A stretch of 30,707 nucleotides of DNA. Origin: a virus. The stretch covers positions 1 to 30,707 of the IMG/VR virus record IMGVR_UViG_3300015263_000319; one strand, given 5' to 3'. How positions within the stretch are numbered: the stretch's first letter is position 1; every line of letters begins with the position of its first letter. Positions 5,496 through 28,245 of this stretch are shown piece after piece. The position numbers and the translations under genes are program-made. The notes beneath the pieces were generated by a model that was given only the letters and a program-made list of their open reading frames with translations, had not been told where the DNA came from and searched no databases.

Positions 5496-5588
5496 CTATT
5501 TTCTTTTCCCGCCTAAGTAAACTTCCATTAATCCTGCCACGATAAAGGCTACAAAAAACATACCAGCCAGCAGAAAGAACCCCCACAC
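5496..5588 (-). CDS. Possible tiny membrane peptide, GTG start
   Basis: A 30-codon frame starting with GTG that shares its G with the TAG of the preceding gene (TAGTG). The peptide is MWGFFLLAGMFFVAFIVAGL followed by a basic tail ending GGKRK, a typical single membrane helix with a positive inside end. No good ribosome site is seen, so expression would depend on coupling. It directly precedes another membrane peptide gene. An internal ATG start is possible. Confidence 0.4.
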   Translation of the reverse strand: MWGFFLLAGMFFVAFIVAGLMEVYLGGKRK

Positions 5589-5953
5589 TACTGCACCAAC
5601 CAGCGGTCATCGCGCGGAGCGCCGTCTTCTGTAGCAGCCGGGGCAGATTTCTTCTCGGCATATCTCCCAAGCTCTTCCTTCGCCTCTTCAATGTCTGCCC
5701 AGGTGACATACCTCCCAGGCGCCTTTAAATCGTCTCTAAGGCACGATCTCTGCTCAACCCATACCGGGATACCACTTGGGAGGAGATCGTGGCTTGTAGA
5801 GCCTCCTGTGGCCTCAGGGACCCATTCTGTGGCGCCCTCATTACCCAATATAGCTCCTCCTGAAATCTCCCCCACCTCTGGAACGGGCCTCTCGTCTGAT
5901 AGTCTCGAGATAGCGAGCCCCACCTGATCGTGTAGCTCTTTGTCGAATCTCAT
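5588..5953 (-). CDS. Unknown small protein
   Basis: A 121-residue protein starting MRFDKELHDQ at the ATG at 5953, with AAGGA about nine bases upstream. It has an N-terminal helix (VGLAISRLSDE), a Gly-rich middle (EISGGAILGNEG) and a C-terminal helix (WADIEEAKEELGRYAEKK) before a disordered tail. It overlaps the preceding gene by 113 bases in another frame, which is unusual. A longer upstream start would overlap even more and is less likely. No family recognised. Confidence 0.55.
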   Translation of the reverse strand: MRFDKELHDQVGLAISRLSDERPVPEVGEISGGAILGNEGATEWVPEATGGSTSHDLLPSGIPVWVEQRSCLRDDLKAPGRYVTWADIEEAKEELGRYAEKKSAPAATEDGAPRDDRWLVQ

Positions 5954-6137
5954 TTGCGAGCGCTTCCTTGAAAGACCTGTAAGCCTCTTTCTCAGTCTCC
6001 CCATCAAGATCTGCATAGTCATATACATATTCAAACTCCTCATTACAAACGTAGCACCTGGTCCTGTAGGGGCGGAATACCCCATGGCACCGTAGGCAAA
6101 TGATATGCTCTCCTGTCTTTAGGCCACGCACACTCAT
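5841..6137 (-). CDS. Small zinc-ribbon protein, first gene of the leftward operon
   Basis: A 98-residue protein starting MSVRGLKTGEH. CLRC and CYVC, 14 residues apart, form a zinc-ribbon-like metal site within the first 35 residues; an acidic segment and a helix (KEAYRSFKEALANEIRQR) follow. The last ~40 residues are Arg/Gly/Ser-rich and overlap the next gene in a different frame. That overlap could mean real overlapping coding or a sequencing frameshift. The gene lies directly downstream of the minus-strand promoter at 6163-6191. As the first product of the operon it could be a regulator, but nothing proves this. Confidence 0.65.
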   Translation of the reverse strand: MSVRGLKTGEHIICLRCHGVFRPYRTRCYVCNEEFEYVYDYADLDGETEKEAYRSFKEALANEIRQRATRSGGARYLETIRREARSRGGGDFRRSYIG

Positions 6138-9043: not shown

Positions 9044-9859
9044 ATGCCTACCACGACAGGCTGCACCACCGTCCCGTGTGCGAATTCGTGGCTCGACCAC
9101 TTCTTTAATGTTGGTACATGGACAATGCCTACCACATATCTGGGGCTGCTTAGCGCAGCCGCAGATAGTGGTACGTATACAGAGGTACACACTCCAGGAC
9201 TCCTTGGGTACGCAAGAGTAGCCTTAGGGACAGGCGGTAGCTCTAAGTTCGGTACGGCATCTCTGGGGAATTCAACTAATTCTGCTGGGTCATTCGTATT
9301 TACACCATCTAATGGAACGTGGACAAATGCTGCATCGTACTGGGGAATCTTTAATGCATCATCTGGTGGCACACTGCTATTCTATGGAGCGATAGAAGCT
9401 TATGGCCTTCCACTGTCACTAAATGATACTCTAACAATCCCTACAAACTCTATAAACTTCCAGAGAGATACTGGATCGTTTATGAATAATAACTACTGGA
9501 ATATATTTTGGAATCACGCCCTTGGTAAGGCGTCGTACACAACTGGGACAAAGTATATAGGACTATGGGACGGCGACCCAAATGGGGCTGGAGTAGAGTC
9601 AGAGACTGCTGGTTCTAATGGGTACGCTAGGCAGACCGCCCTCATGAACTCTGCAACAAATGCTTTAGCTGACAACTCAACGGCAAGGACGTTCGGAGCT
9701 GCAACAGCCGCTTGGGGGGTTACTGATTATTTTAATATATTGTCCGCGTCTACTGGTGGAACTGCGTATGGTGGTGATGCGTGGGACACTTCTAGGACTA
9801 TTGCAAATGGGGACTCCGCACAGATAGCAGTACAAGATCTTGTCGTGGTGCATAGCTAA
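9044..9859 (+). CDS. Fibre-like protein with two tandem copies of one domain
   Basis: A 271-residue protein. Two units of about 115-125 residues follow each other. The first runs from LDHFFNVGTWTMPTTYLGLL to about residue 135; the second from WNIFWNHALGKASYTTGTKYIGLW to the end. Each has an aromatic helix, a TYLGLx/KYIGLW strand, a glycine-tyrosine-alanine-arginine turn (LGYARV, NGYARQ), a central YWGIF/YFNIL strand preceding a small-residue loop, and a last TIxxGDS/LxLNDTLTI strand. The 8572 protein carries the same unit once. The repeated unit is recognised in fibre-like phage proteins. It ends in a TAATG overlap with the 800-residue repeat protein. Confidence 0.7.
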   Translation: MPTTTGCTTVPCANSWLDHFFNVGTWTMPTTYLGLLSAAADSGTYTEVHTPGLLGYARVALGTGGSSKFGTASLGNSTNSAGSFVFTPSNGTWTNAASYWGIFNASSGGTLLFYGAIEAYGLPLSLNDTLTIPTNSINFQRDTGSFMNNNYWNIFWNHALGKASYTTGTKYIGLWDGDPNGAGVESETAGSNGYARQTALMNSATNALADNSTARTFGAATAAWGVTDYFNILSASTGGTAYGGDAWDTSRTIANGDSAQIAVQDLVVVHS

Positions 9860-12261
9860 TGGCATTCCCGGCAGAGAGGGCGTTTACTAGTAATAATTCA
9901 GGTGGTAACGCCACCTCACACTCTATATCACTTCCTACGCATGCATCTGGAGATTTGCTGCTAGTATGGTTTATCGCCGATGGATCTCCAACAGTATCTG
10001 TAAACACTGGGTCATCTTCTTCTGGGTGGGCAATACAGAAGCAAGGAGCAAATCCTGGTGGAGATGTGACTGGAGCTCTTGTATGGAAGATTGCAGCAGG
10101 AGCATCAGAAACTTTAACACTTGATACAGACGCAAACGAGGGCTCGGCCCACTACTCTGTTTCAATAACTACTGGCACGTTCAAAGCATCAAATCCATTT
10201 GAAGGATATACAATATTCAATTCAAATGATGCAACAAGCCTTGGCTGTTCTATGCCGTCTCCGAGCTGGGGAAGCGCTGATAACCTGTGGTATTCTTTCC
10301 ATGGGTGGGACGGGAATAGGGATTTAACAACCTGGCCTACAACACAAACAGACAGCCGTTCTTATAGTCGGTGGGCTCAAGCAAATGGATGTGGAGCCGC
10401 CGGGTCTTCTGATGAGCAGACAACAGGCACATATAGCGGATCAACTACACTAACCATAGACTCGTCAGATACCATGATTGCGTACGGCGTTGTAATACAG
10501 CCGTACTCAGCAGAGACATGGGCGCTTGATAACTCTGGTACTACTGGAACAAACAGGGGAGACGCCACATCGAATGCTAGCCTTAAAGTTCTTATGTCTG
10601 GCGCTGCATTTGCTGTTAGATCCGCCGGAGCAAATACACAGGCACCAACTGTTGTTCTTGGGTCAATATCTAAAGACTTTGCTGGGGCTGGTGCAAATGC
10701 AGGAGCCAATACACAAGCACCCACTGTTTTGTATGGAAGCACTTCGGTAACTCCTTCTGAGGTTACTGCTGGAGCGAATACTCAGTCGCCAACTACTGTA
10801 GCGGGGTCACTATCGTTTGACTTTGCTGGCGCTGGAGCAACTGCTGGCGGAGCAGTAGTAGACCCAACAGTAGACATAGGCTCTGGTAATATAACTGTCG
10901 AACCAGCGGCTGTAACTGCTGGAGCAAATACTCAGGCTCCGACAGTAGTGCTTGGATCTCTTGCTCCCACGATAACAGAGATAACGGCTGGGGCAAATAC
11001 TCAGGCTCCGACAGTTCTGTATGGCAGTACACTGGCAACGCCAACAGAGGTTACCGCTGGCGCGGCCACTGTTGCTCCAACTGTCATTTATGGAAGTGAT
11101 ACAGTTACTCCTGCTGAGGTAACTGCTGGAGCAAATACACAGAACCCAACCGTACTATATGGGTCTACATCTATAGATAATGTTCAATCAGCCGCAGGGT
11201 CTAATACTCAGAATCCAACGGTAGTACTTGGTAACATATCTATAGATTACGACGGGGCTGGGGCAAGCGCTGGGGCTTCTGTTATAGACCCAACAGTGGA
11301 GGCTGGCGGTAACATAACGGTTACTCCAGCGGCTGTGACGTCTGGGGCAAACACACAATCTCCAGTAGTTCTATATGGATCTGTTTCGGTCAGCAATCCA
11401 ATTGTTGCGGCAGGAGTAAACACTCAAGATCCAACAACCATACTAGGTTCTCTTGTCTTTACTGATATAGCATCTGCAGGAGCTGGAGCAATAGATCCGA
11501 GCGTAAACTTTGGTAGTATAATAGTTTCTTCGGCAACAGTAACCGCAGGAGTAAATACACAAGATCCTACACTATTCTTTAGTTCTGATACGGCTTCGCC
11601 ATCTGCAATAGCTGCTGGAGCAGCAACATCTGTAGGAGCGATCTTACTGTCTTCCATGTCTGTAACTCCAGCGGCAGCTTCTGCTGGGGCGACCGCAAGC
11701 ATAGAGCAGGCAGTAGCGGGATCTCTAAGCTTTACAGAAATATCCTCAGCAGGGGCTCTGTCTTCAGTTGGGAATGTATTTGAATCAAGCATAGTAGTTT
11801 CTCCATCCGCAGTATCGTCTGGTGCAGCTACATCTGTAACTGTTATACAGTCTTCTATGACAGTCTCTCCGTCTGTTATAGCAGCAGGATCTTCTGCTTC
11901 GATATCTTCTGTTGTTCTTGGTGGCTTAGCACTAACCCCGCCTATTGCATCTGCTGCAACATACTCATCTGTAGACATTGGCGTATTTATAGAGCCATCT
12001 AATGCAAGCGCTGGAGCAATAGCATCTATAGCCGGTGTTGAGCAGGGAGAGATAACAATAGTCTTGGGCGGAAGGATATGGACGCACCTTGGTCTAATCC
12101 GAAGGGGAGCTACCGCCTTGACGTCAGCAACTGGTGAATGTTACTCTGATGTAACAATAGATTACGCTAATTCTGGAGCTAATGCTGGTACCTCAGCAAG
12201 CTACTTACGAGTAGGAACAAACCTACAAATTGCAAAGAGCTTGGAAATATATGATGAATGA
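9859..12261 (+). CDS. Long repetitive fibre-like protein
   Basis: An 800-residue protein. Residues 1-220 look like a jelly-roll beta domain (HASGDLLLVWFIADGSP, then GALVWKIAAGASETLTL, ending MIAYGVVIQPY). From about residue 254 to 735 it is built of roughly 23-residue repeats of the type AGANTQAPTVLYGSTSVTPS; later copies decay to AGAATSV-type units. The last ~60 residues are unique (GGRIWTHLGLIRRG to SLEIYDE). Regular Gly/Ala/Thr/Val repeats with no cysteine suggest an extended beta shaft, so a tail or head fibre is the simplest reading. Similar repeat units occur in the 25399 gene product. The ATG overlaps the previous stop (TAATG). Confidence 0.75.
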   Translation: MAFPAERAFTSNNSGGNATSHSISLPTHASGDLLLVWFIADGSPTVSVNTGSSSSGWAIQKQGANPGGDVTGALVWKIAAGASETLTLDTDANEGSAHYSVSITTGTFKASNPFEGYTIFNSNDATSLGCSMPSPSWGSADNLWYSFHGWDGNRDLTTWPTTQTDSRSYSRWAQANGCGAAGSSDEQTTGTYSGSTTLTIDSSDTMIAYGVVIQPYSAETWALDNSGTTGTNRGDATSNASLKVLMSGAAFAVRSAGANTQAPTVVLGSISKDFAGAGANAGANTQAPTVLYGSTSVTPSEVTAGANTQSPTTVAGSLSFDFAGAGATAGGAVVDPTVDIGSGNITVEPAAVTAGANTQAPTVVLGSLAPTITEITAGANTQAPTVLYGSTLATPTEVTAGAATVAPTVIYGSDTVTPAEVTAGANTQNPTVLYGSTSIDNVQSAAGSNTQNPTVVLGNISIDYDGAGASAGASVIDPTVEAGGNITVTPAAVTSGANTQSPVVLYGSVSVSNPIVAAGVNTQDPTTILGSLVFTDIASAGAGAIDPSVNFGSIIVSSATVTAGVNTQDPTLFFSSDTASPSAIAAGAATSVGAILLSSMSVTPAAASAGATASIEQAVAGSLSFTEISSAGALSSVGNVFESSIVVSPSAVSSGAATSVTVIQSSMTVSPSVIAAGSSASISSVVLGGLALTPPIASAATYSSVDIGVFIEPSNASAGAIASIAGVEQGEITIVLGGRIWTHLGLIRRGATALTSATGECYSDVTIDYANSGANAGTSASYLRVGTNLQIAKSLEIYDE
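10621..12060 (+). repeat. Tandem ~69-bp coding repeats
   Basis: Degenerate DNA repeats, each about 69 bases, encode the 23-residue units of the long fibre-like protein. Motifs such as GGAGCAAATAC(A/T)CAG recur many times. The left part is well conserved; the right part has drifted. Such arrays are prone to gain or loss of units by recombination. Confidence 0.7.
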
Positions 12262-13472: not shown

Positions 13473-13895
13473 ATGATGATATCAAATGCTACACAACCAA
13501 CGTTTGGCGGAGGCGCGTCAGGCTGGGGCTCTATGCTAGATAGGATAAGAGCTTCGATGGGCTATAGCATGCCCACTGGTCCTGGTGGTGGAAATCCTAA
13601 TGAAATGGCTCTTAGAAGGAGAAATGGTCAGCGTGGACTAGAAATGTCTGGTCGTGGTGACTCAAGGTTTTCTGCTGCTCCTCCAATGTCTGCACCGGCT
13701 CCTGTAATGGCAAGTGGTGGTGGTCTAATTGGGCAAACAATGGCACCAGCCGGAACAACCCTGTCGCCTCAAATAATGGAAATGCTAAAGAGGAGAGGGG
13801 CTATGCAACTTGGTGGAGCGCCAACGGCGTATGCGATCCCAGATGCAGTAAGAAGTTTTAATCCAACATTCATGGGCATGTCGCCCACTAGGTAA
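13473..13895 (+). CDS. Unknown Gly/Met/Pro-rich protein
   Basis: A 140-residue protein of low complexity, rich in Gly, Met, Ala and Pro (YSMPTGPGGGNPN, PPMSAPAPVMASGGG). Short helices occur (MLDRIRASMG, PQIMEMLKRRGAM). GGGAG precedes the ATG. The composition suggests a flexible virion or assembly factor rather than an enzyme. No family recognised. Confidence 0.55.
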   Translation: MMISNATQPTFGGGASGWGSMLDRIRASMGYSMPTGPGGGNPNEMALRRRNGQRGLEMSGRGDSRFSAAPPMSAPAPVMASGGGLIGQTMAPAGTTLSPQIMEMLKRRGAMQLGGAPTAYAIPDAVRSFNPTFMGMSPTR

Positions 13896-21600: not shown

Positions 21601-22347
21601 ATGCCAAATATTCAAACTTTAAATCAGGATATAATCAGGACACTACACCTAGACTCTGACACAATCGGCTCCAAAATAACCGAAGATGTTAAGAGAGAGG
21701 TTATAAACGCTATGCGATACTATGAGGGTGAAGCCCCATGGTTCCTTCTCAGAAAGGAAACAATAGACCTAGTATCTGATGTATACAAGTATCCAGTCGA
21801 AAAAGAGGTCACTAGTATAGCTAATCGTCCAATCTACATCCCAGACAAATCAGTTCCAGAAGCATCTTGGCCTATTCATCTTACGACATATGATGATGTT
21901 GTAGCTGAGCTTACTGGATCAATAGATTTTGATTTTGGTGACAGTACAATAAACACTGGAACGCCGAGAAAGATGGCGTTTGACGCCTCAGAGCATCAGA
22001 TAATAGTTGCTCCTGTTCCATCTACTGATATATCTCAGATTCAGTTTATTGTTAGTATGGCATCACAGATACCATCATATGAACACGATGGGTCTAGCTG
22101 GTATTTCTATGAACCATTATCTACTGAGCCATTGCCTGATACTTTTTCAAACGTTTGGCTAGAGTATGGATATGACCTAATAAAGTATAGAGCCCTGTCG
22201 CTCCTTCTTGCTGGAGTATACGGTGGTTCTGACTCCGCTATGAATAAGGCAGGATCATATAATCAATTAGCTGGAGCGGAGCTCTCGAGGCTAAGAGTAT
22301 TACACAACAGGAAGGTACAAGCTACATATATCCCAAGGGATATTTAA
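21601..22347 (+). CDS. Head-tail adaptor protein
   Basis: A 248-residue protein. It has an N-terminal helical part (LNQDIIRTLHLDSDTIG, then EVINAMRYYEGEAPWFLLR), a central beta region, and a C-terminal helix pair (VWLEYGYDLIKYRALSLLL, then AGAELSRLRVLHNRKVQATYIPRDI), as in podoviral adaptor proteins that dock under the portal (P22 gp4-like position). It follows the capsid block and precedes the tail hub genes, as expected. No ribosome site is visible: a hairpin sits just before the ATG. Assignment is from layout and position. Confidence 0.65.
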   Translation: MPNIQTLNQDIIRTLHLDSDTIGSKITEDVKREVINAMRYYEGEAPWFLLRKETIDLVSDVYKYPVEKEVTSIANRPIYIPDKSVPEASWPIHLTTYDDVVAELTGSIDFDFGDSTINTGTPRKMAFDASEHQIIVAPVPSTDISQIQFIVSMASQIPSYEHDGSSWYFYEPLSTEPLPDTFSNVWLEYGYDLIKYRALSLLLAGVYGGSDSAMNKAGSYNQLAGAELSRLRVLHNRKVQATYIPRDI

Positions 22348-24395
22348 TGAAAAGTTTTATCTATCCATTTGACTCCTTGAACCCAGATCTTGGAGATAGG
22401 GGCTCATCTGGGTTGCTTGCCGCAATAAATGTAAACCCAGTATCTGGGATGTATTGCCCTGGTCCATCAGTACAAGAGATCAGAGATTTTGCTACATCTG
22501 GCCCGACCTCTATAAATAACCAAATAGTGGCAATGTATCCACATGATGAGCTTATTTTTACTGCATGCAGAACCGGGCAAAAACTCTATGGTGGAGATGT
22601 TTATGGCATAACAATGAACCAGGAAGAGTATGAGGTTACTCCAGCAAGTGGATGGGATAGTACTCCTGCGGCAGACGAGTGGAATTATGCATTCGCATCA
22701 TATGGTGATATCCTTGTAGCTGCGGTACCAGATAACAAACTTGTTTATATGAGCGCCTCATCATTTAGATCTACTCCACTAACTACAAACTTTGAATTTG
22801 AATCAACATTTGGATCTGGCAAGGTTGCCTCGTCATTCTCCCCAGAGGCTAAACATATAGTAACACATGGAGGGCACCTTGTCGCTGCGGGTATAACTGT
22901 TGATTCAACATGGAATAGCCTGGCCGCAGGTACATACGATAACCTTGTGTGGTGGAGCGGATTCGATGACCCTCTCTCATTCGGGGCATATGCGTTTACA
23001 CCAGAGGTCCTTGGTTCAGACTACAAGTTTTTGTATGATACTCCTGGCGGCGTTACTGGGATGATATCCGCTGGCGACTATCTATTTGTATTTAAAGAAA
23101 ATTATATATATATAGTAGAAGGCCCTCCGTTTAGATTCCATCTTCTTGCTACTGGCGTTGGCACGTCATGTCCCAACTCGATTATGTTCCACAAAGACTG
23201 GGTATATTTTATGACTAGATCTGGCCCGGCAAGGATAAATAGCAATGGAGAATATAACCTTCTATGTGAACAAAAAACAAAGACAACACTAAACGTAACT
23301 CAGGGAATGTTTGCTAGCGGGTATGGTGCAGCCCTTTCGCTTGCATCTCATTTTCTATATCCATTCGCCTTTAAAGGATTTAATATACCGTCAACAGAGG
23401 CGTTCAGCAAGGTATACACCGCTGTTTCTGAACAGTATAATATAGTTTATTTCTTATACCCAGCGTCACAAAAAGTATATGAAGGACAAGGCGTTGAGAC
23501 GTTTAGGCTATCTTATACAGTTCTAATGTCATATGATATTGTTACAGGGAATATAGGGTACAGTGTACCTTGGCCCGTAGAACAGACATTTGAGGGTATA
23601 GGGTTGGGCACTACTGTTATGGACCCAAAGATACCATGGGAAACAACAGTCCTATATGGAACAAGCCCGTACTATACAAGAGGCACAAGGAATTGTTTTG
23701 CGATGACAACTCTTTTGTATAAGCCCGATAAGGGCAAAGCGAAGGATGTTATTATAATTGGCACAAGGAACTGGAACTGGTTTGGAAACTTTACAGAATC
23801 TAGTTATGATATGCAATACAATTATCTTGATCCAACGATATTCTATGGGAAAAACTGGAGTATGTATACTAGGACTAACTTTATAACAAAAATTATAAGA
23901 CCAAGTAAATCAACATCCAGGATAGTAAAGATAAGACCGATAATGCGTATCGGGCATGGATATGATAAGATAAAGTTTAGATGCTATGTGTTATCCTTTT
24001 CTGATATTTCCCTATCTGGTCAAGAAATATATAACCATGAAGAGATATGCGAGATGTTCTCTGGCTCAGTATATTACCCGCTAACCCATGATGATTTCTT
24101 GTCTACATATGTATTTGATAATAAGGTTGCTATATCGGAGAGTAACCTTTTAACAAAAGATGGTTCTATAATATTTGAAGACTCAAGATTTGCTGATGAA
24201 CATATTATAATATTTTCGTTTCATACTGGAAAGGATGATCAGATTCTTCTGGTGCCAGTTGGGAAAAGTAAAAGGAACCCTCAATATGAAGAATATATAG
24301 CACTTGGAGACAGATCAAAAGCAAACTTTTGCACGACAACCGGAGTAATAGGGCTTGAAGTGTTCTATGATGAGCAAGGGGTTCTATCTAGATAA
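22347..24395 (+). CDS. Tail hub protein, P22 gp10-like beta-propeller
   Basis: A 682-residue protein starting in a TAATG overlap. The first ~320 residues show beta-propeller blade patterns (LVAAGITVD, NLVWWSGFDDPLSFG, GSDYKFLYDTPGG, LFVFKENYIYIVEGPPFRF, WVYFMTRSGPARI). These match the repeated blades of hub/stabiliser proteins such as P22 gp10. The second half is a beta-rich domain ending in GVIGLEVFYDEQG. It would close the channel below the adaptor. The next two genes repeat its two halves. Length is larger than P22 gp10 (472), and the extra C-terminal domain is unexplained. Confidence 0.7.
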   Translation: MKSFIYPFDSLNPDLGDRGSSGLLAAINVNPVSGMYCPGPSVQEIRDFATSGPTSINNQIVAMYPHDELIFTACRTGQKLYGGDVYGITMNQEEYEVTPASGWDSTPAADEWNYAFASYGDILVAAVPDNKLVYMSASSFRSTPLTTNFEFESTFGSGKVASSFSPEAKHIVTHGGHLVAAGITVDSTWNSLAAGTYDNLVWWSGFDDPLSFGAYAFTPEVLGSDYKFLYDTPGGVTGMISAGDYLFVFKENYIYIVEGPPFRFHLLATGVGTSCPNSIMFHKDWVYFMTRSGPARINSNGEYNLLCEQKTKTTLNVTQGMFASGYGAALSLASHFLYPFAFKGFNIPSTEAFSKVYTAVSEQYNIVYFLYPASQKVYEGQGVETFRLSYTVLMSYDIVTGNIGYSVPWPVEQTFEGIGLGTTVMDPKIPWETTVLYGTSPYYTRGTRNCFAMTTLLYKPDKGKAKDVIIIGTRNWNWFGNFTESSYDMQYNYLDPTIFYGKNWSMYTRTNFITKIIRPSKSTSRIVKIRPIMRIGHGYDKIKFRCYVLSFSDISLSGQEIYNHEEICEMFSGSVYYPLTHDDFLSTYVFDNKVAISESNLLTKDGSIIFEDSRFADEHIIIFSFHTGKDDQILLVPVGKSKRNPQYEEYIALGDRSKANFCTTTGVIGLEVFYDEQGVLSR

Positions 24396-25399
24396 TGCCC
24401 ATAGAGAAATCATTTTTATACGATATAGGAGAATACAATCCAGACGCTGGTTGGGCTGGTAACTCTGGCATTGGGTGGTTAAATAATATGAACCCAGCAG
24501 GAGGGGTATATAATCCAGGACCTGCGATAGCTCAGCCATGGGGAGTTTTCTGGAGAGATATTGGGTCACAGTTATTCTATGACGGAGAATATATGGGTGG
24601 CATAATTGTACCAACTCCTGGCTCTGATCATCCCACGTATATATACGCTCTAGCCGGAGGAACTTACGGATATAAAATAGAAAGAAAATTTGTTAAATAC
24701 AGTGATGGCGGAATAGAAAATGGAGAAGATATAACTCCTACATCTGGGTGGAGTCAAGGAACTGGGCATCAAGAAATAATAGACACTTGGGGTGTTCAGT
24801 TCACTACATTTGGTGTTAATGTTTTTTGCACTGATGGTATATCTGGTCTACACAAATATGACTGGACTGCAGCCAGTAACTTTACTATCGCGGCCTTTGA
24901 TGCAGAGAGCGCAGACCCAATTCCAAAAGTCATTGCATCTCATGGCGGCCACATGATTCTTGGGAATATAAATCTCCCAACGAACTATACTGGTATAAAC
25001 TCTGGTGAGTATCCAAACCTGTTATGGTGGAGCGAATTTGATGGTCCAGAGAATTATGGAACATTACTTGCTGCACCACAGTTTAAAGGATCTGATTATA
25101 AATTCTTATATGATACTCCTGGGGGAATTATTCAAATAGTACCGGCTGGAGATGTTGTCTTCGTCTTTAAAGAGAAAGCGATCTATATCGGAGAGGGTCC
25201 TCCGTTTAGATGGAACCTTCTGTCAAGGACAATCGGTACGCAATTTCCTAATTCATGTGCATATTACGCTGGCGCAGTTTACTTCATGTCAGACTCTGGT
25301 CCAGCTAGGGTTGGAAGATCTGGAGAGGTTGAGCTATTACTTACAGGAAAGGCACAGAGAACGCTGATTGGAACTGGCGCTCTCTTCACTAATACATAA
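24395..25399 (+). CDS. Second tail hub copy, N-terminal (propeller) half
   Basis: A 334-residue protein that matches residues 1-~325 of the preceding gene product. Shared elements in order are a YxP/LYDIG-type start and NPDAGWAGNSG, NLLWWSEFDGPENYG, GSDYKFLYDTPGG, VVFVFKEKAIYIGEGPPFRW, PNSC, AVYFMSDSGPAR. It stops where the first copy continues; the missing C-terminal half is encoded in the next gene. TAATG overlaps join it to both neighbours. The two proteins may form a complex that mimics one hub, or the split may give a second fold with a new job. Confidence 0.7.
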   Translation: MPIEKSFLYDIGEYNPDAGWAGNSGIGWLNNMNPAGGVYNPGPAIAQPWGVFWRDIGSQLFYDGEYMGGIIVPTPGSDHPTYIYALAGGTYGYKIERKFVKYSDGGIENGEDITPTSGWSQGTGHQEIIDTWGVQFTTFGVNVFCTDGISGLHKYDWTAASNFTIAAFDAESADPIPKVIASHGGHMILGNINLPTNYTGINSGEYPNLLWWSEFDGPENYGTLLAAPQFKGSDYKFLYDTPGGIIQIVPAGDVVFVFKEKAIYIGEGPPFRWNLLSRTIGTQFPNSCAYYAGAVYFMSDSGPARVGRSGEVELLLTGKAQRTLIGTGALFTNT

Positions 25400-27165
25400 T
25401 GGCTACTATAACTATATTCCCAGACTGGGTAGAAAACTTTACTCCAGGAGGAAACTGGAGCTTTGATAATAATCCTCCATGGGATTTTGCTCAGCATATC
25501 CAAAATAAAGATTTAGTAAAGGCTCACTTTACTGGTGATGCCACACCGAATCAGGGACTGTTCTGGGCGCATTTTGATAACCCTCCATCGTCACCAGAGC
25601 CAGACAGGAATTCTACCCACCTACTGAACATGAGCGTCACAAAGCAGGCTGGTGGATGGTCTGTTGAACCGTATTGGGAAGTGGCTATAGTAGAGGGATA
25701 CGGTACAACAAATAATTATATCGCAGAGTTCTTTGGTCTTGGATTCGGAACAAATATAAACCTGTATTTTGATGGCACTGCGATTATTGATTATAACAAT
25801 ATAGAGATTGTAGTAACAGTATACACTGACGCTGCAGATGCGGGGAAAAGGATTTCGTTTGATTACGCCGCGATATCGTTTGACCAACTTCCTGATGATC
25901 CGATTACACAGGACCCGCCCACTGGTGTAACTGCAAGTAGAGATTTAACAACTGGCATTTACGTTAGTTGGAATAAGCCGTCTGGTGCCGGAGAATACTT
26001 AATATATAGAAATCAGTCTGGAGTATTCGATGATGGTGACTACGTATGGACAAACCCTAGCGGCAATGACACAGATTGGTTGGACGATTCTGTAAACCCA
26101 AACGAGGACTACTACTATTGGGTTAAGGCCAGAAGCGGCACAGGAGTAGAAAGTGAACCGGCGGCGTCAAACCCTGGGCTCATGCTCCCGCAGGCCGGAC
26201 TTGTTGTAGCGCCAGCGGCGATAACAGCAGGTACTAGCGCTGAGGGTTTTGTATTAGAATTAACTTCAATAGAATTGATACCAAACGCAGCGTCCGCCAG
26301 AACAAGGGCAAAGGCTCCGTTTGAACTAGGTGATAGCGAGGTTGATGGGTTCTTCCAGTGGATGGGCCAGCAGTACTCATATACAAACTATAGCTATAGA
26401 AAACGCGATACATATATGGCTGTAGATTCTGCAAATGATTTGATGTATTGGATGTACCCAACGGCTTCTGAGGAACCATTTGTAAAGCAATTACCAAGAG
26501 TTATTATGTCTATACATAGACCAACCGGGAAGGTTGGCCTATCTAATCCCATCCCTTGGGTTGCAGTTGTTCCTCCGAAGGAATATGCCGCCTTTAGAAA
26601 TAAGACAGGATTTGCTATTCATACCGTTCCTTCAATTCCATTTACTGATAGGTATAATACTGTTCTAATTGTTATACCACTTGAGTACAGTACGGAAGAC
26701 CTATTATCAGACACTGAAGAAGGTCTTAAGGGCCATGCCATGCTTGATGGCCTTATATATACTGGACCAGCATCTAAGTATGCGTCGGCAGAAATAGTAA
26801 CAAAGTTCTTTAGGCCACCAACAGATACTCCAAATATAATGACAAGGATTACTGGAGTGCGCCCAGTATTTTCACATGGCGATGCAGCTAACCTATCGTT
26901 TGGGGCAAAGCTATGGACTAGTTCGACATGGAGAAGAAACGATAATGTATTTGCAGCCAATCCGTCCACTGAATCTAGGCTTATACTTGACGGCAATATA
27001 ATAATATTTGAGGATAGCAAGTATGGCTTAGAACACTGCGTAGGACTAGACTTTGACACAAACAATGGAAGTGACCAATGGCAAAATGGATATCCATACT
27101 ATTCTGGTGGCGGCATAGTTGGAATAGAAGTGTTCTATACTGAGCAGGAAAGTGGGTGGAGATAA
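25399..27165 (+). CDS. Second hub copy, C-terminal half with added beta and Fn3 domains
   Basis: A 588-residue mosaic protein. Residues 1-165 are a new beta-sandwich (ITIFPDWVENFTPGGNW, VEPYWEVAIVEG). Residues ~172-259 form a fibronectin type III domain (PPTGVTASRDLTTGIYVSW, YLIYRNQSG, YYYWVKARSGTGVESEPA). Residues ~266-304 carry repeats like those of the 800-residue protein (LVVAPAAITAGTSAEG). From about 310 the chain matches the C-terminal half of the first hub protein (VIMSIHRPTGKVGLSNPIPW against VLMSYDIVTGNIGYSVPW, and GGIVGIEVFYTEQ against GVIGLEVFYDEQ). An inserted module therefore separates the two hub halves. Surface-binding Fn3 domains in phages often aid host adhesion. Confidence 0.75.
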   Translation: MATITIFPDWVENFTPGGNWSFDNNPPWDFAQHIQNKDLVKAHFTGDATPNQGLFWAHFDNPPSSPEPDRNSTHLLNMSVTKQAGGWSVEPYWEVAIVEGYGTTNNYIAEFFGLGFGTNINLYFDGTAIIDYNNIEIVVTVYTDAADAGKRISFDYAAISFDQLPDDPITQDPPTGVTASRDLTTGIYVSWNKPSGAGEYLIYRNQSGVFDDGDYVWTNPSGNDTDWLDDSVNPNEDYYYWVKARSGTGVESEPAASNPGLMLPQAGLVVAPAAITAGTSAEGFVLELTSIELIPNAASARTRAKAPFELGDSEVDGFFQWMGQQYSYTNYSYRKRDTYMAVDSANDLMYWMYPTASEEPFVKQLPRVIMSIHRPTGKVGLSNPIPWVAVVPPKEYAAFRNKTGFAIHTVPSIPFTDRYNTVLIVIPLEYSTEDLLSDTEEGLKGHAMLDGLIYTGPASKYASAEIVTKFFRPPTDTPNIMTRITGVRPVFSHGDAANLSFGAKLWTSSTWRRNDNVFAANPSTESRLILDGNIIIFEDSKYGLEHCVGLDFDTNNGSDQWQNGYPYYSGGGIVGIEVFYTEQESGWR

Positions 27166-27794
27166 TGCATAATAGCATAAGCAGGATAACAAGAGGTGAC
27201 AATAGGGATAGGTTTAATGCAAATTTGCTTGAACATTCTCTTTCTTCGCACATGTATAATAGGTGGGTACCAGCAATAGAATTTGATAATGTTACAACAA
27301 CCACCGCAGCCACTCTTAGTAGCCCTGGCTCTGAACCATTTCAGGGATGGCAGCTTGGGAATCAGTCTAGGTACTCAATAGCTGCTTATGTCCCAAAGCA
27401 CAGAGAGTGGAGATCTGGCTTAGTTACTATAGTTCCACATATAATGACTCAGGGAACAAGTGGAAATGTTGTTCTTTACTGTGGTATTATTCCATTGGCT
27501 TATGGAGATACAATTACAACGTACCCAACTTCTGGTACTGCATATGATAAGGTTATAGCAGCCAGTGCTACTGTGTATGATTTAACTCCAGTCAAAGAAA
27601 CAACGTACATGTCTAATGGGCTTTGGACAGCACCAGTTGACGATTCAGTTGTTGGTCTTCAAGTCTTTATTGGTAGAAACGGAGCATCAGGATCTGACAC
27701 TATGACTGGAAATGTTATTGTACTTGGTGCAATGATAAAGTATATTGAGGGTGAAAAATCCATAGGTGAGAACTATGACCCAATTAGGAGGTAG
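27165..27794 (+). CDS. Unknown virion-type protein
   Basis: A 209-residue protein starting MHNSISRITRGDN; GGAG lies upstream and the ATG overlaps the preceding stop (TAATG). The N-terminus is polar and helical; the rest is beta-rich (RWVPAIEFDNVTTTTAAT, GLVTIVPHIMTQGTSGNVVLY, VVGLQVFIGRNGASG, GNVIVLGAMIKY), fitting a jelly-roll-like virion protein. No motif identifies the family. Its place after hub genes suggests a tail or tail-tip component. Confidence 0.6.
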   Translation: MHNSISRITRGDNRDRFNANLLEHSLSSHMYNRWVPAIEFDNVTTTTAATLSSPGSEPFQGWQLGNQSRYSIAAYVPKHREWRSGLVTIVPHIMTQGTSGNVVLYCGIIPLAYGDTITTYPTSGTAYDKVIAASATVYDLTPVKETTYMSNGLWTAPVDDSVVGLQVFIGRNGASGSDTMTGNVIVLGAMIKYIEGEKSIGENYDPIRR

Positions 27795-27795
27795 T

Positions 27796-28245
27796 ATGCT
27801 CCGCTTGGCAGAGGATAGAGATATCCAAAGTTTAGTACATCTTGCAAAAGGATACCATAAGGAGATATACCCAGACTATGAGTTTGATAGAGATCGTACT
27901 GTAATAAATATTACAAATATTGTACACTTAGATAATTCTGTATTACTTGTTTTAGAGGATGATGGAAGGATAGTTGGGTGTATAGGATTCGTCCTTACAA
28001 CTCCTATATCTGGCGGACCATTTGGGGCAGCAGAGCTCTTCTGGTTTGTAGATAAGGAGCATAGGGGCGGGTCTACAGGAGTAAGGATGTTGGTTGAAGC
28101 TGAGCGGTATATGGAGAGTAACTACGATATCAAATATCTAGAGATGACGGCTATGGAAACTTCCATGCCAGATAAGGTTCAAGGCTTTTTAGAGAGGCGT
28201 GGGTATACGCCATCTGAGAGGCATTTCCGTAAAGTACTGAATTAA
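27796..28245 (+). CDS. GNAT-family N-acetyltransferase
   Basis: A 149-residue protein with AGGAGG before the ATG. It shows the GNAT order: LAEDRDIQSLVHLAKGYH (helix alpha1), VLLVLEDDGRIVGCIGFVL (strands beta2-3), AAELFWFVDKEHRGGSTGVRMLVEAE (the acetyl-CoA loop, normally Q/RxxGxG/A; here HRGGSTG), and LEMTAMETSMPDKVQGFLERRGYTPSE (strand, helix and last strand). The pyrophosphate loop and the GxxxSE-type ending are both present. It would transfer an acetyl group from acetyl-CoA to an unknown target. Such enzymes occur in podoviral structural operons. Target and role cannot be inferred from sequence. Confidence 0.85.
   Translation: MLRLAEDRDIQSLVHLAKGYHKEIYPDYEFDRDRTVINITNIVHLDNSVLLVLEDDGRIVGCIGFVLTTPISGGPFGAAELFWFVDKEHRGGSTGVRMLVEAERYMESNYDIKYLEMTAMETSMPDKVQGFLERRGYTPSERHFRKVLN

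Follow-up and report, generated by a model that had tools for sequence, protein, structure and literature searches.

In short-tailed phages, the channel is closed by the nozzle, which opens it upon host contact. The nozzles of P22 (gp10), T7 (gp12), Pa223 and VP1 all consist of a seven-blade propeller and a platform, and they are encoded by one gene that yields one chain, which forms a homohexamer; the hexameric state has been described for T7 (PMC6702177). According to Hardies and colleagues, the part of the nozzle protein that is conserved consists of successive propeller blades, which line the channel of the tail (PMC10386132). In the nozzle gp17 of SU10 (PMC9509320) and the muzzle gp44 of crAss001 (PMC10172136), Ig-like domains that form the tip of the tail are inserted into the propeller; these insertions are located between blades 2 and 3 (in crAss001 also in blade 3), and the chain is continuous. 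In the Vibrio phage OWB, the nozzle itself binds a host receptor (PMC7241545). A duplicated tail component is known in the case of the adaptor ring, two paralogues of which ('tubeA') are encoded together in phiGT1 and in Bcep22-like phages, and the authors left open whether these form one hetero-ring or two rings (PMC10386132).

The window analyzed here, 30,707 bases in length, comprises the whole of one IMG/VR virus record. Its products include a terminase (phrog_38, E 4e-30), a portal of the P22 type (PF16510, E 4e-46), and a major capsid protein (phrog_334, E 1.5e-47), and the tail genes are located downstream. The relatives of the capsid protein are podoviruses, the closest being the Paracoccus phage vB_PmaP_KLEP18-1 (35%). 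KLEP18-1 has the gene order capsid, adaptor, nozzle (gp16, 490 aa, single copy), a 133-aa gene, and acetyltransferase, whereas MW202481 contains a single nozzle of 536 aa, with a 264-aa ORF and then an acetyltransferase behind it. The order in the window matches both, but three genes replace their one nozzle (Table 1). The first of these encodes a nozzle of 682 aa (copy 1), and the other two correspond to the parts of a second, split nozzle (copy 2). In contrast, KLEP18-1 and the sequence family to which its nozzle and that of the window belong (PHROG 3287) have one unsplit copy of 475–536 aa that lacks an Fn3 domain. The 248-aa gene upstream of copy 1 has the position of the annotated adaptor of KLEP18-1; its product shows weak similarity to that of the gene preceding the nozzle in Rhizobium phage RHph_Y1_10 (26%, E 3.6e-4) and is 41% identical to its counterpart in the only close relative that was found, the contig L006. 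Elsewhere in the window, the products of a block on the minus strand (781–2954) include one that resembles DprA (phrog_768, E 2e-42) and one with a macro domain (PF01661, E 9e-8), and the G+C content of this block, up to 61%, is unlike that of the remaining window. The otherwise different products of 5588–6085 (minus strand) and 13473–13895 (plus strand) have a ten-residue stretch around MGYSxPTGPG in common (about 90% identical), which may be due to chance.

Table 1. Features of the nozzle region, with positions in the window.
Feature	Position	Strand	Basis or remark
Tail adaptor, 248 aa (P22 gp4 / 'tubeA' position)	21601..22347	+	directly 5' of nozzle copy 1
Nozzle copy 1, 682 aa, unsplit	22347..24395	+	phrog_3287, profile, fold
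Nozzle copy 2, N-terminal piece, 334 aa	24395..25399	+	34% to copy 1; phrog_3287 E 3.2e-14
TAATG stop/start overlap dividing copy 2	25397..25401	+	
588-aa protein: added N-terminal module and nozzle copy 2 C-terminal piece	25399..27165	+	
Domain of unknown fold, residues 1–167 of 588	25399..25899	+	no significant PDB, PHROGs or Pfam match
Fn3 domain, residues 172–255 of 588	25912..26163	+	PF00041; phrog_31 (tail fibre J) E 7.7e-5
VAPAAITAGT, residues 269–278 of 588	26203..26232	+	resembles 23-aa repeat of the 800-aa protein (9859–12261)
Nozzle copy 2, C-terminal piece	26317..27165	+	alignment to copy 1; C-terminal end is the conserved EVFYxEQ...R
212-aa gene and GNAT acetyltransferase	27156..28245	+	3' of nozzle region; GNAT PF00583 E 1.6e-9

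The gene of copy 1 is located immediately behind that of the tail adaptor, with the major capsid gene further upstream, which is the nozzle position. Its product matched the PHROG 3287 profile (E 2.8e-14), and an hhalign comparison with the single-copy nozzle family resulted in a probability of 97.8 (E 9.9e-13). When the sequence of copy 1 alone was used, no chain was found in the PDB, and there was no match at the Pfam level to the nozzles of P22 (gp10), T7 (gp12), Pa223, and VP1. The sequence tie to solved nozzles is indirect and runs via the profile of the single-copy relatives, which retrieved those of Pa223 (9nwi_Y) and VP1 (8zkk_O and 8zkm_E) with E values of 2e-29 to 3e-29. An AF2 model of copy 1 had a mean pLDDT of 46, with values of about 80 across most of residues 165–305. 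Using this model, the top Foldseek matches were the nozzles of Pa223, SU10, VP1, Pan3, P22, and Sf6, with E values from 5e-13 to 1e-6 (e.g. 5.2e-13 for 9nwi_Y and 1.9e-7 for gp10 of P22, 8eap_D). In comparisons with VIA, residues 44–460 aligned to nozzles with Z scores of 16–18.6; because other seven-blade propellers reached 15–16, the assignment rests jointly on sequence, synteny, and fold. Together, these findings identify the 682-aa protein as a podoviral tail nozzle of the P22 gp10 / T7 gp12 type, for which a seven-blade propeller and a platform are likewise predicted. An earlier note, made from the sequence alone, had proposed a P22-like tail hub, and the fold bears this out as a P22 gp10-type nozzle.

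The two following genes match the two halves of copy 1, as the earlier note had claimed for the first ~325 and the last ~340 residues. Residues 2–324 of copy 1 aligned to residues 5–333 of the 334-aa protein (BLASTP, 34% over 346 columns, E 9e-55), and residues 357–677 aligned to residues 339–583 of the 588-aa protein (21%, E 2e-7). The latter, much weaker similarity was also evaluated by shuffling, and the two C-terminal halves reached a Smith-Waterman score of 117, compared to 36.0 +/- 5.6 for 1,000 shuffled sequences (maximum 72). No similarity to copy 1 was found for residues 1–300 of the 588-aa protein (38 versus 40.7 +/- 5.5 for the shuffles), and BLASTP detected none between the 334-aa and the 588-aa proteins. 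The 588-aa protein did not match the PHROG 3287 profile, nor did the C-terminal half of copy 2 match the nozzle family profile significantly. In the 334-aa protein, the residues conserved in the family have been kept, and its BLAST match to the family is better than that of copy 1. The half alignments and the shuffle tests thus showed that the two pieces span a nozzle once and in order, without a gap or large overlap, with both family termini retained and the added module where the two meet. At the level of sequence comparison, the duplication of the nozzle and the splitting of its second copy are, therefore, well supported.

The model of copy 1 indicated where the cut would be located in the fold. 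Its strands stop at residues 303–305 and restart at 357–361; residue 324, to which the end of the 334-aa piece corresponds, is located within this gap, so that the cut falls between blades. The nozzle part of the 588-aa protein restarts at a strand pair, YMAVDSANDLMYWMYP, that is equivalent to YTAVSEQYNIVYFLYP at residues 357–372 of copy 1. Counted from the N-terminus of the predicted seven-blade propeller, the cut would separate the fifth from the sixth blade; as the AF2 models are poor (mean pLDDT of 46 and, for the 588-aa protein, 39), the boundaries of the blades are taken from the centre of copy 1, where its model is better. According to the alignment with copy 1, the 334-aa piece would comprise the N-terminal platform strands and about five blades, and the C-terminal piece the remaining two blades together with the C-terminal platform. 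The central, channel-lining segment is the best-kept part, and it is located in the 334-aa product. Copy 2 would thus differ from the nozzle of SU10 and the muzzle of crAss001 both in that the chain is cut and in the predicted site of the break, between blades 5 and 6.

The 588-aa protein begins with an added module of about 300 aa, and the description of this module in the earlier note was only partly confirmed. The module is present and contains one Fn3 domain, which scored 26.2 bits (E 9.7e-6) when the segment was scanned alone, above the Pfam gathering cut-off of 25, and 21.8 bits within the whole protein. A beta-sandwich had been proposed in addition; for residues 1–167 it is plausible, but there was no significant family or PDB match, and the AF2 model of the 588-aa protein was too poor to reveal one. 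The third proposed element, two tandem repeats of the type found in the 800-aa protein, was not recovered, but there was a single 10-residue match to one 23-aa unit, VAPAAITAGT, with a score of 6.3 bits that was not reached by any of 1,000 shuffles, i.e. a real but short resemblance. The G+C content of the module is 45%, versus 42% for the flanking nozzle parts, which is not decisive for a foreign origin. The 800-aa protein contains many copies of the repeat, with a consensus near VTPAAVTAGANTQAPTVLYGS, and matched phrog_8501, 'minor tail protein' (7.9e-5). The gene at 9044–9859 encodes a 271-aa protein that matched PF23140, the fibre I protein gp80 of podophage GP4, in two stretches (E 2.4e-33).

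Our preferred reading is a tandem duplication of the nozzle gene, after which copy 2 is made as two chains that complete one propeller and carry an Fn3 module at the tail tip, and we assign a probability of roughly 0.55 to it. Alternatively, the two genes could encode two proteins with separate roles, i.e. the 334-aa protein might act as a cap or form a small ring by itself, and the 588-aa protein might be an adhesin or fibre that docks via its nozzle-derived C-terminal domain. This would be in accordance with the separate genes, with the lack of detectable similarity between the two products, with an Fn3 domain of a type found in tail fibres (phrog_31), and with the much higher divergence of the nozzle part of the 588-aa protein compared to that of the 334-aa protein. 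However, taken together the pieces represent every part of the nozzle once, in the right order, and have kept both family termini. In addition, a propeller that lacks some of its blades would probably not be stable by itself, which counts against two separate proteins. We thus regard this alternative as rather unlikely.

The frequency and the age of the duplication were addressed by searches for relatives. Profile searches yielded 35 loci with nozzle relatives, the complete genes of which are mostly 475–536 aa long and present as a single copy. L006 is 54% identical to copy 1, and the contig ends inside that gene. No relative with copy 2 was found when viral and genome contigs were scanned with P0001, P0002, and P0003, their alignments, the capsid, and the portal, and tblastn searches of phages with the products yielded almost nothing. 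When all ORFs of the fetched loci were searched with the nozzle profile, there was one strong match per locus except in the window and in the contig L012, and the window was the only one with two distinct nozzle copies among the 31 loci whose profile match was full-length or partial. In several loci, weak extra matches (E 3e-5 to 0.03) were present in genes just upstream of the nozzle. A tblastn search of 50,697 phage records with two nozzles, which could miss a copy as diverged as copy 1, matched 128 and 145 records in overlapping sets, and PQ859842 (124 kb) was the only one of these with more than one matching place. A duplicated nozzle with a split copy was not found elsewhere in the records searched, and in the open-licence literature we found no report of two nozzle genes. 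In the contig L012 (3592–4976), a frame break near residue 260 divides the nozzle gene in two, close to the split site of copy 2; the N-terminal half of this gene closely follows that of L013, and its C-terminal half resembles another lineage. A genuinely split gene is less likely here than a junction formed by recombination or an error of assembly.

A tree was built on the N-terminal halves of the nozzles. The 334-aa piece formed one group with copy 1 and the homologue of copy 1 in L006 (100/100), and the latter two were nested within this group (100/97). The duplication is, therefore, old, and the tree favours an origin within this lineage before L006 split off, so that a second copy is predicted also for the L006 phage. 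This is different from phiGT1 and the Bcep22-like phages, in which the adaptor was duplicated via fusion of distant lineages and has remained unsplit. The age is of importance for a further explanation, according to which copy 2 is a decaying pseudogene that was broken by mutation and insertion and has no function in the virion. Two broken frames and a fast diverging C-terminal half could be understood in this way, and no relative was found in which copy 2 is conserved. However, the divergence of the two copies predates the parting of copy 1 and L006, and yet 922 codons of copy 2 are still open, the family-conserved residues have been retained in the 334-aa piece, and the boundary is a proper stop/start overlap. 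Decay is, therefore, improbable in our opinion.

The boundary within copy 2 has the same TAATG form as the two preceding gene junctions (22347 and 24395). The frame of the 588-aa gene is closed by a stop codon at 25390 and that of the 334-aa gene by stop codons at 25397 and 25409. The stretch that both frames leave open is thus only about 5 nt long, and a single-base error would need to sit within it. A sequencing error that had joined the genes, against which the earlier note had cautioned, thus found no support, as the TAATG is clean and the frames are closed on both sides. Although the locus is known from the assembled sequence of one metagenomic contig, and L012 has a nozzle frame break close to the same place that is probably artefactual, a breaking or joining of genes by assembly or sequencing is highly improbable, because the overlap between the frames is limited to about 5 nt at a TAATG, the order of the two copies is collinear, and the surrounding gene order agrees with those of KLEP18-1 and MW202481. 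Programmed frameshifting or stop codon read-through that would fuse the two products was also considered and rejected, owing to the mere ~5 nt of shared frame and the in-frame stop at 25409, and no slippery heptamer was seen at the junction. In contrast to copy 1, no Shine-Dalgarno-like motif was seen in the 25 nt upstream of the 588-aa start, which suggests that this gene is translated by coupling to the 334-aa gene.

Under the preferred reading, a podoviral nozzle gene would have been duplicated in tandem, copy 1 would be an ordinary one-chain nozzle, and copy 2 would have been divided into two genes between blades five and six. The upstream chain would supply the N-terminal platform strands and the channel-lining blades, and the downstream chain the last two blades and the C-terminal platform. 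Translation coupled at the stop/start overlap most likely yields both chains in cis, which would also link their amounts, and the chains most likely complete one propeller non-covalently; the position between blades is judged to be the most likely reason that the split is tolerated. The module of about 300 aa, on the new N-terminus of the 588-aa chain, would leave the subunit at an inter-blade loop and most likely be a tail-tip appendage that either contacts a surface or extends the nozzle. Such a role as an appendage or adhesin is plausible by analogy, because Ig-like domains build the tips of SU10 and crAss001 and the OWB nozzle binds the receptor. Nevertheless, an insertion between blades may be located near the channel or at the subunit interface and not on the outside. 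For the tail as a whole, we tentatively propose a nozzle of two kinds of subunit, either as a threefold mixed ring or as two stacked rings, in which one kind is the two-chain propeller that displays the Fn3 module at its cut; we consider this possible but somewhat doubtful.

The earlier note had regarded such an arrangement as new for P22-like tails. The duplicated, split nozzle was not found elsewhere in the records searched, but tip-building Ig-like insertions (SU10, crAss001) and dual adaptors have precedents. In summary, the sequence data for the duplicated, split nozzle point to an unusual tail tip. The question of tail symmetry and tip modules was already raised, and left open, for the phages with dual adaptors (PMC10386132). 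If the preferred reading is true, a nozzle ring would tolerate a cut between propeller blades, and the locus would be a natural example of a short tail that gained a new tip module or a lower symmetry.
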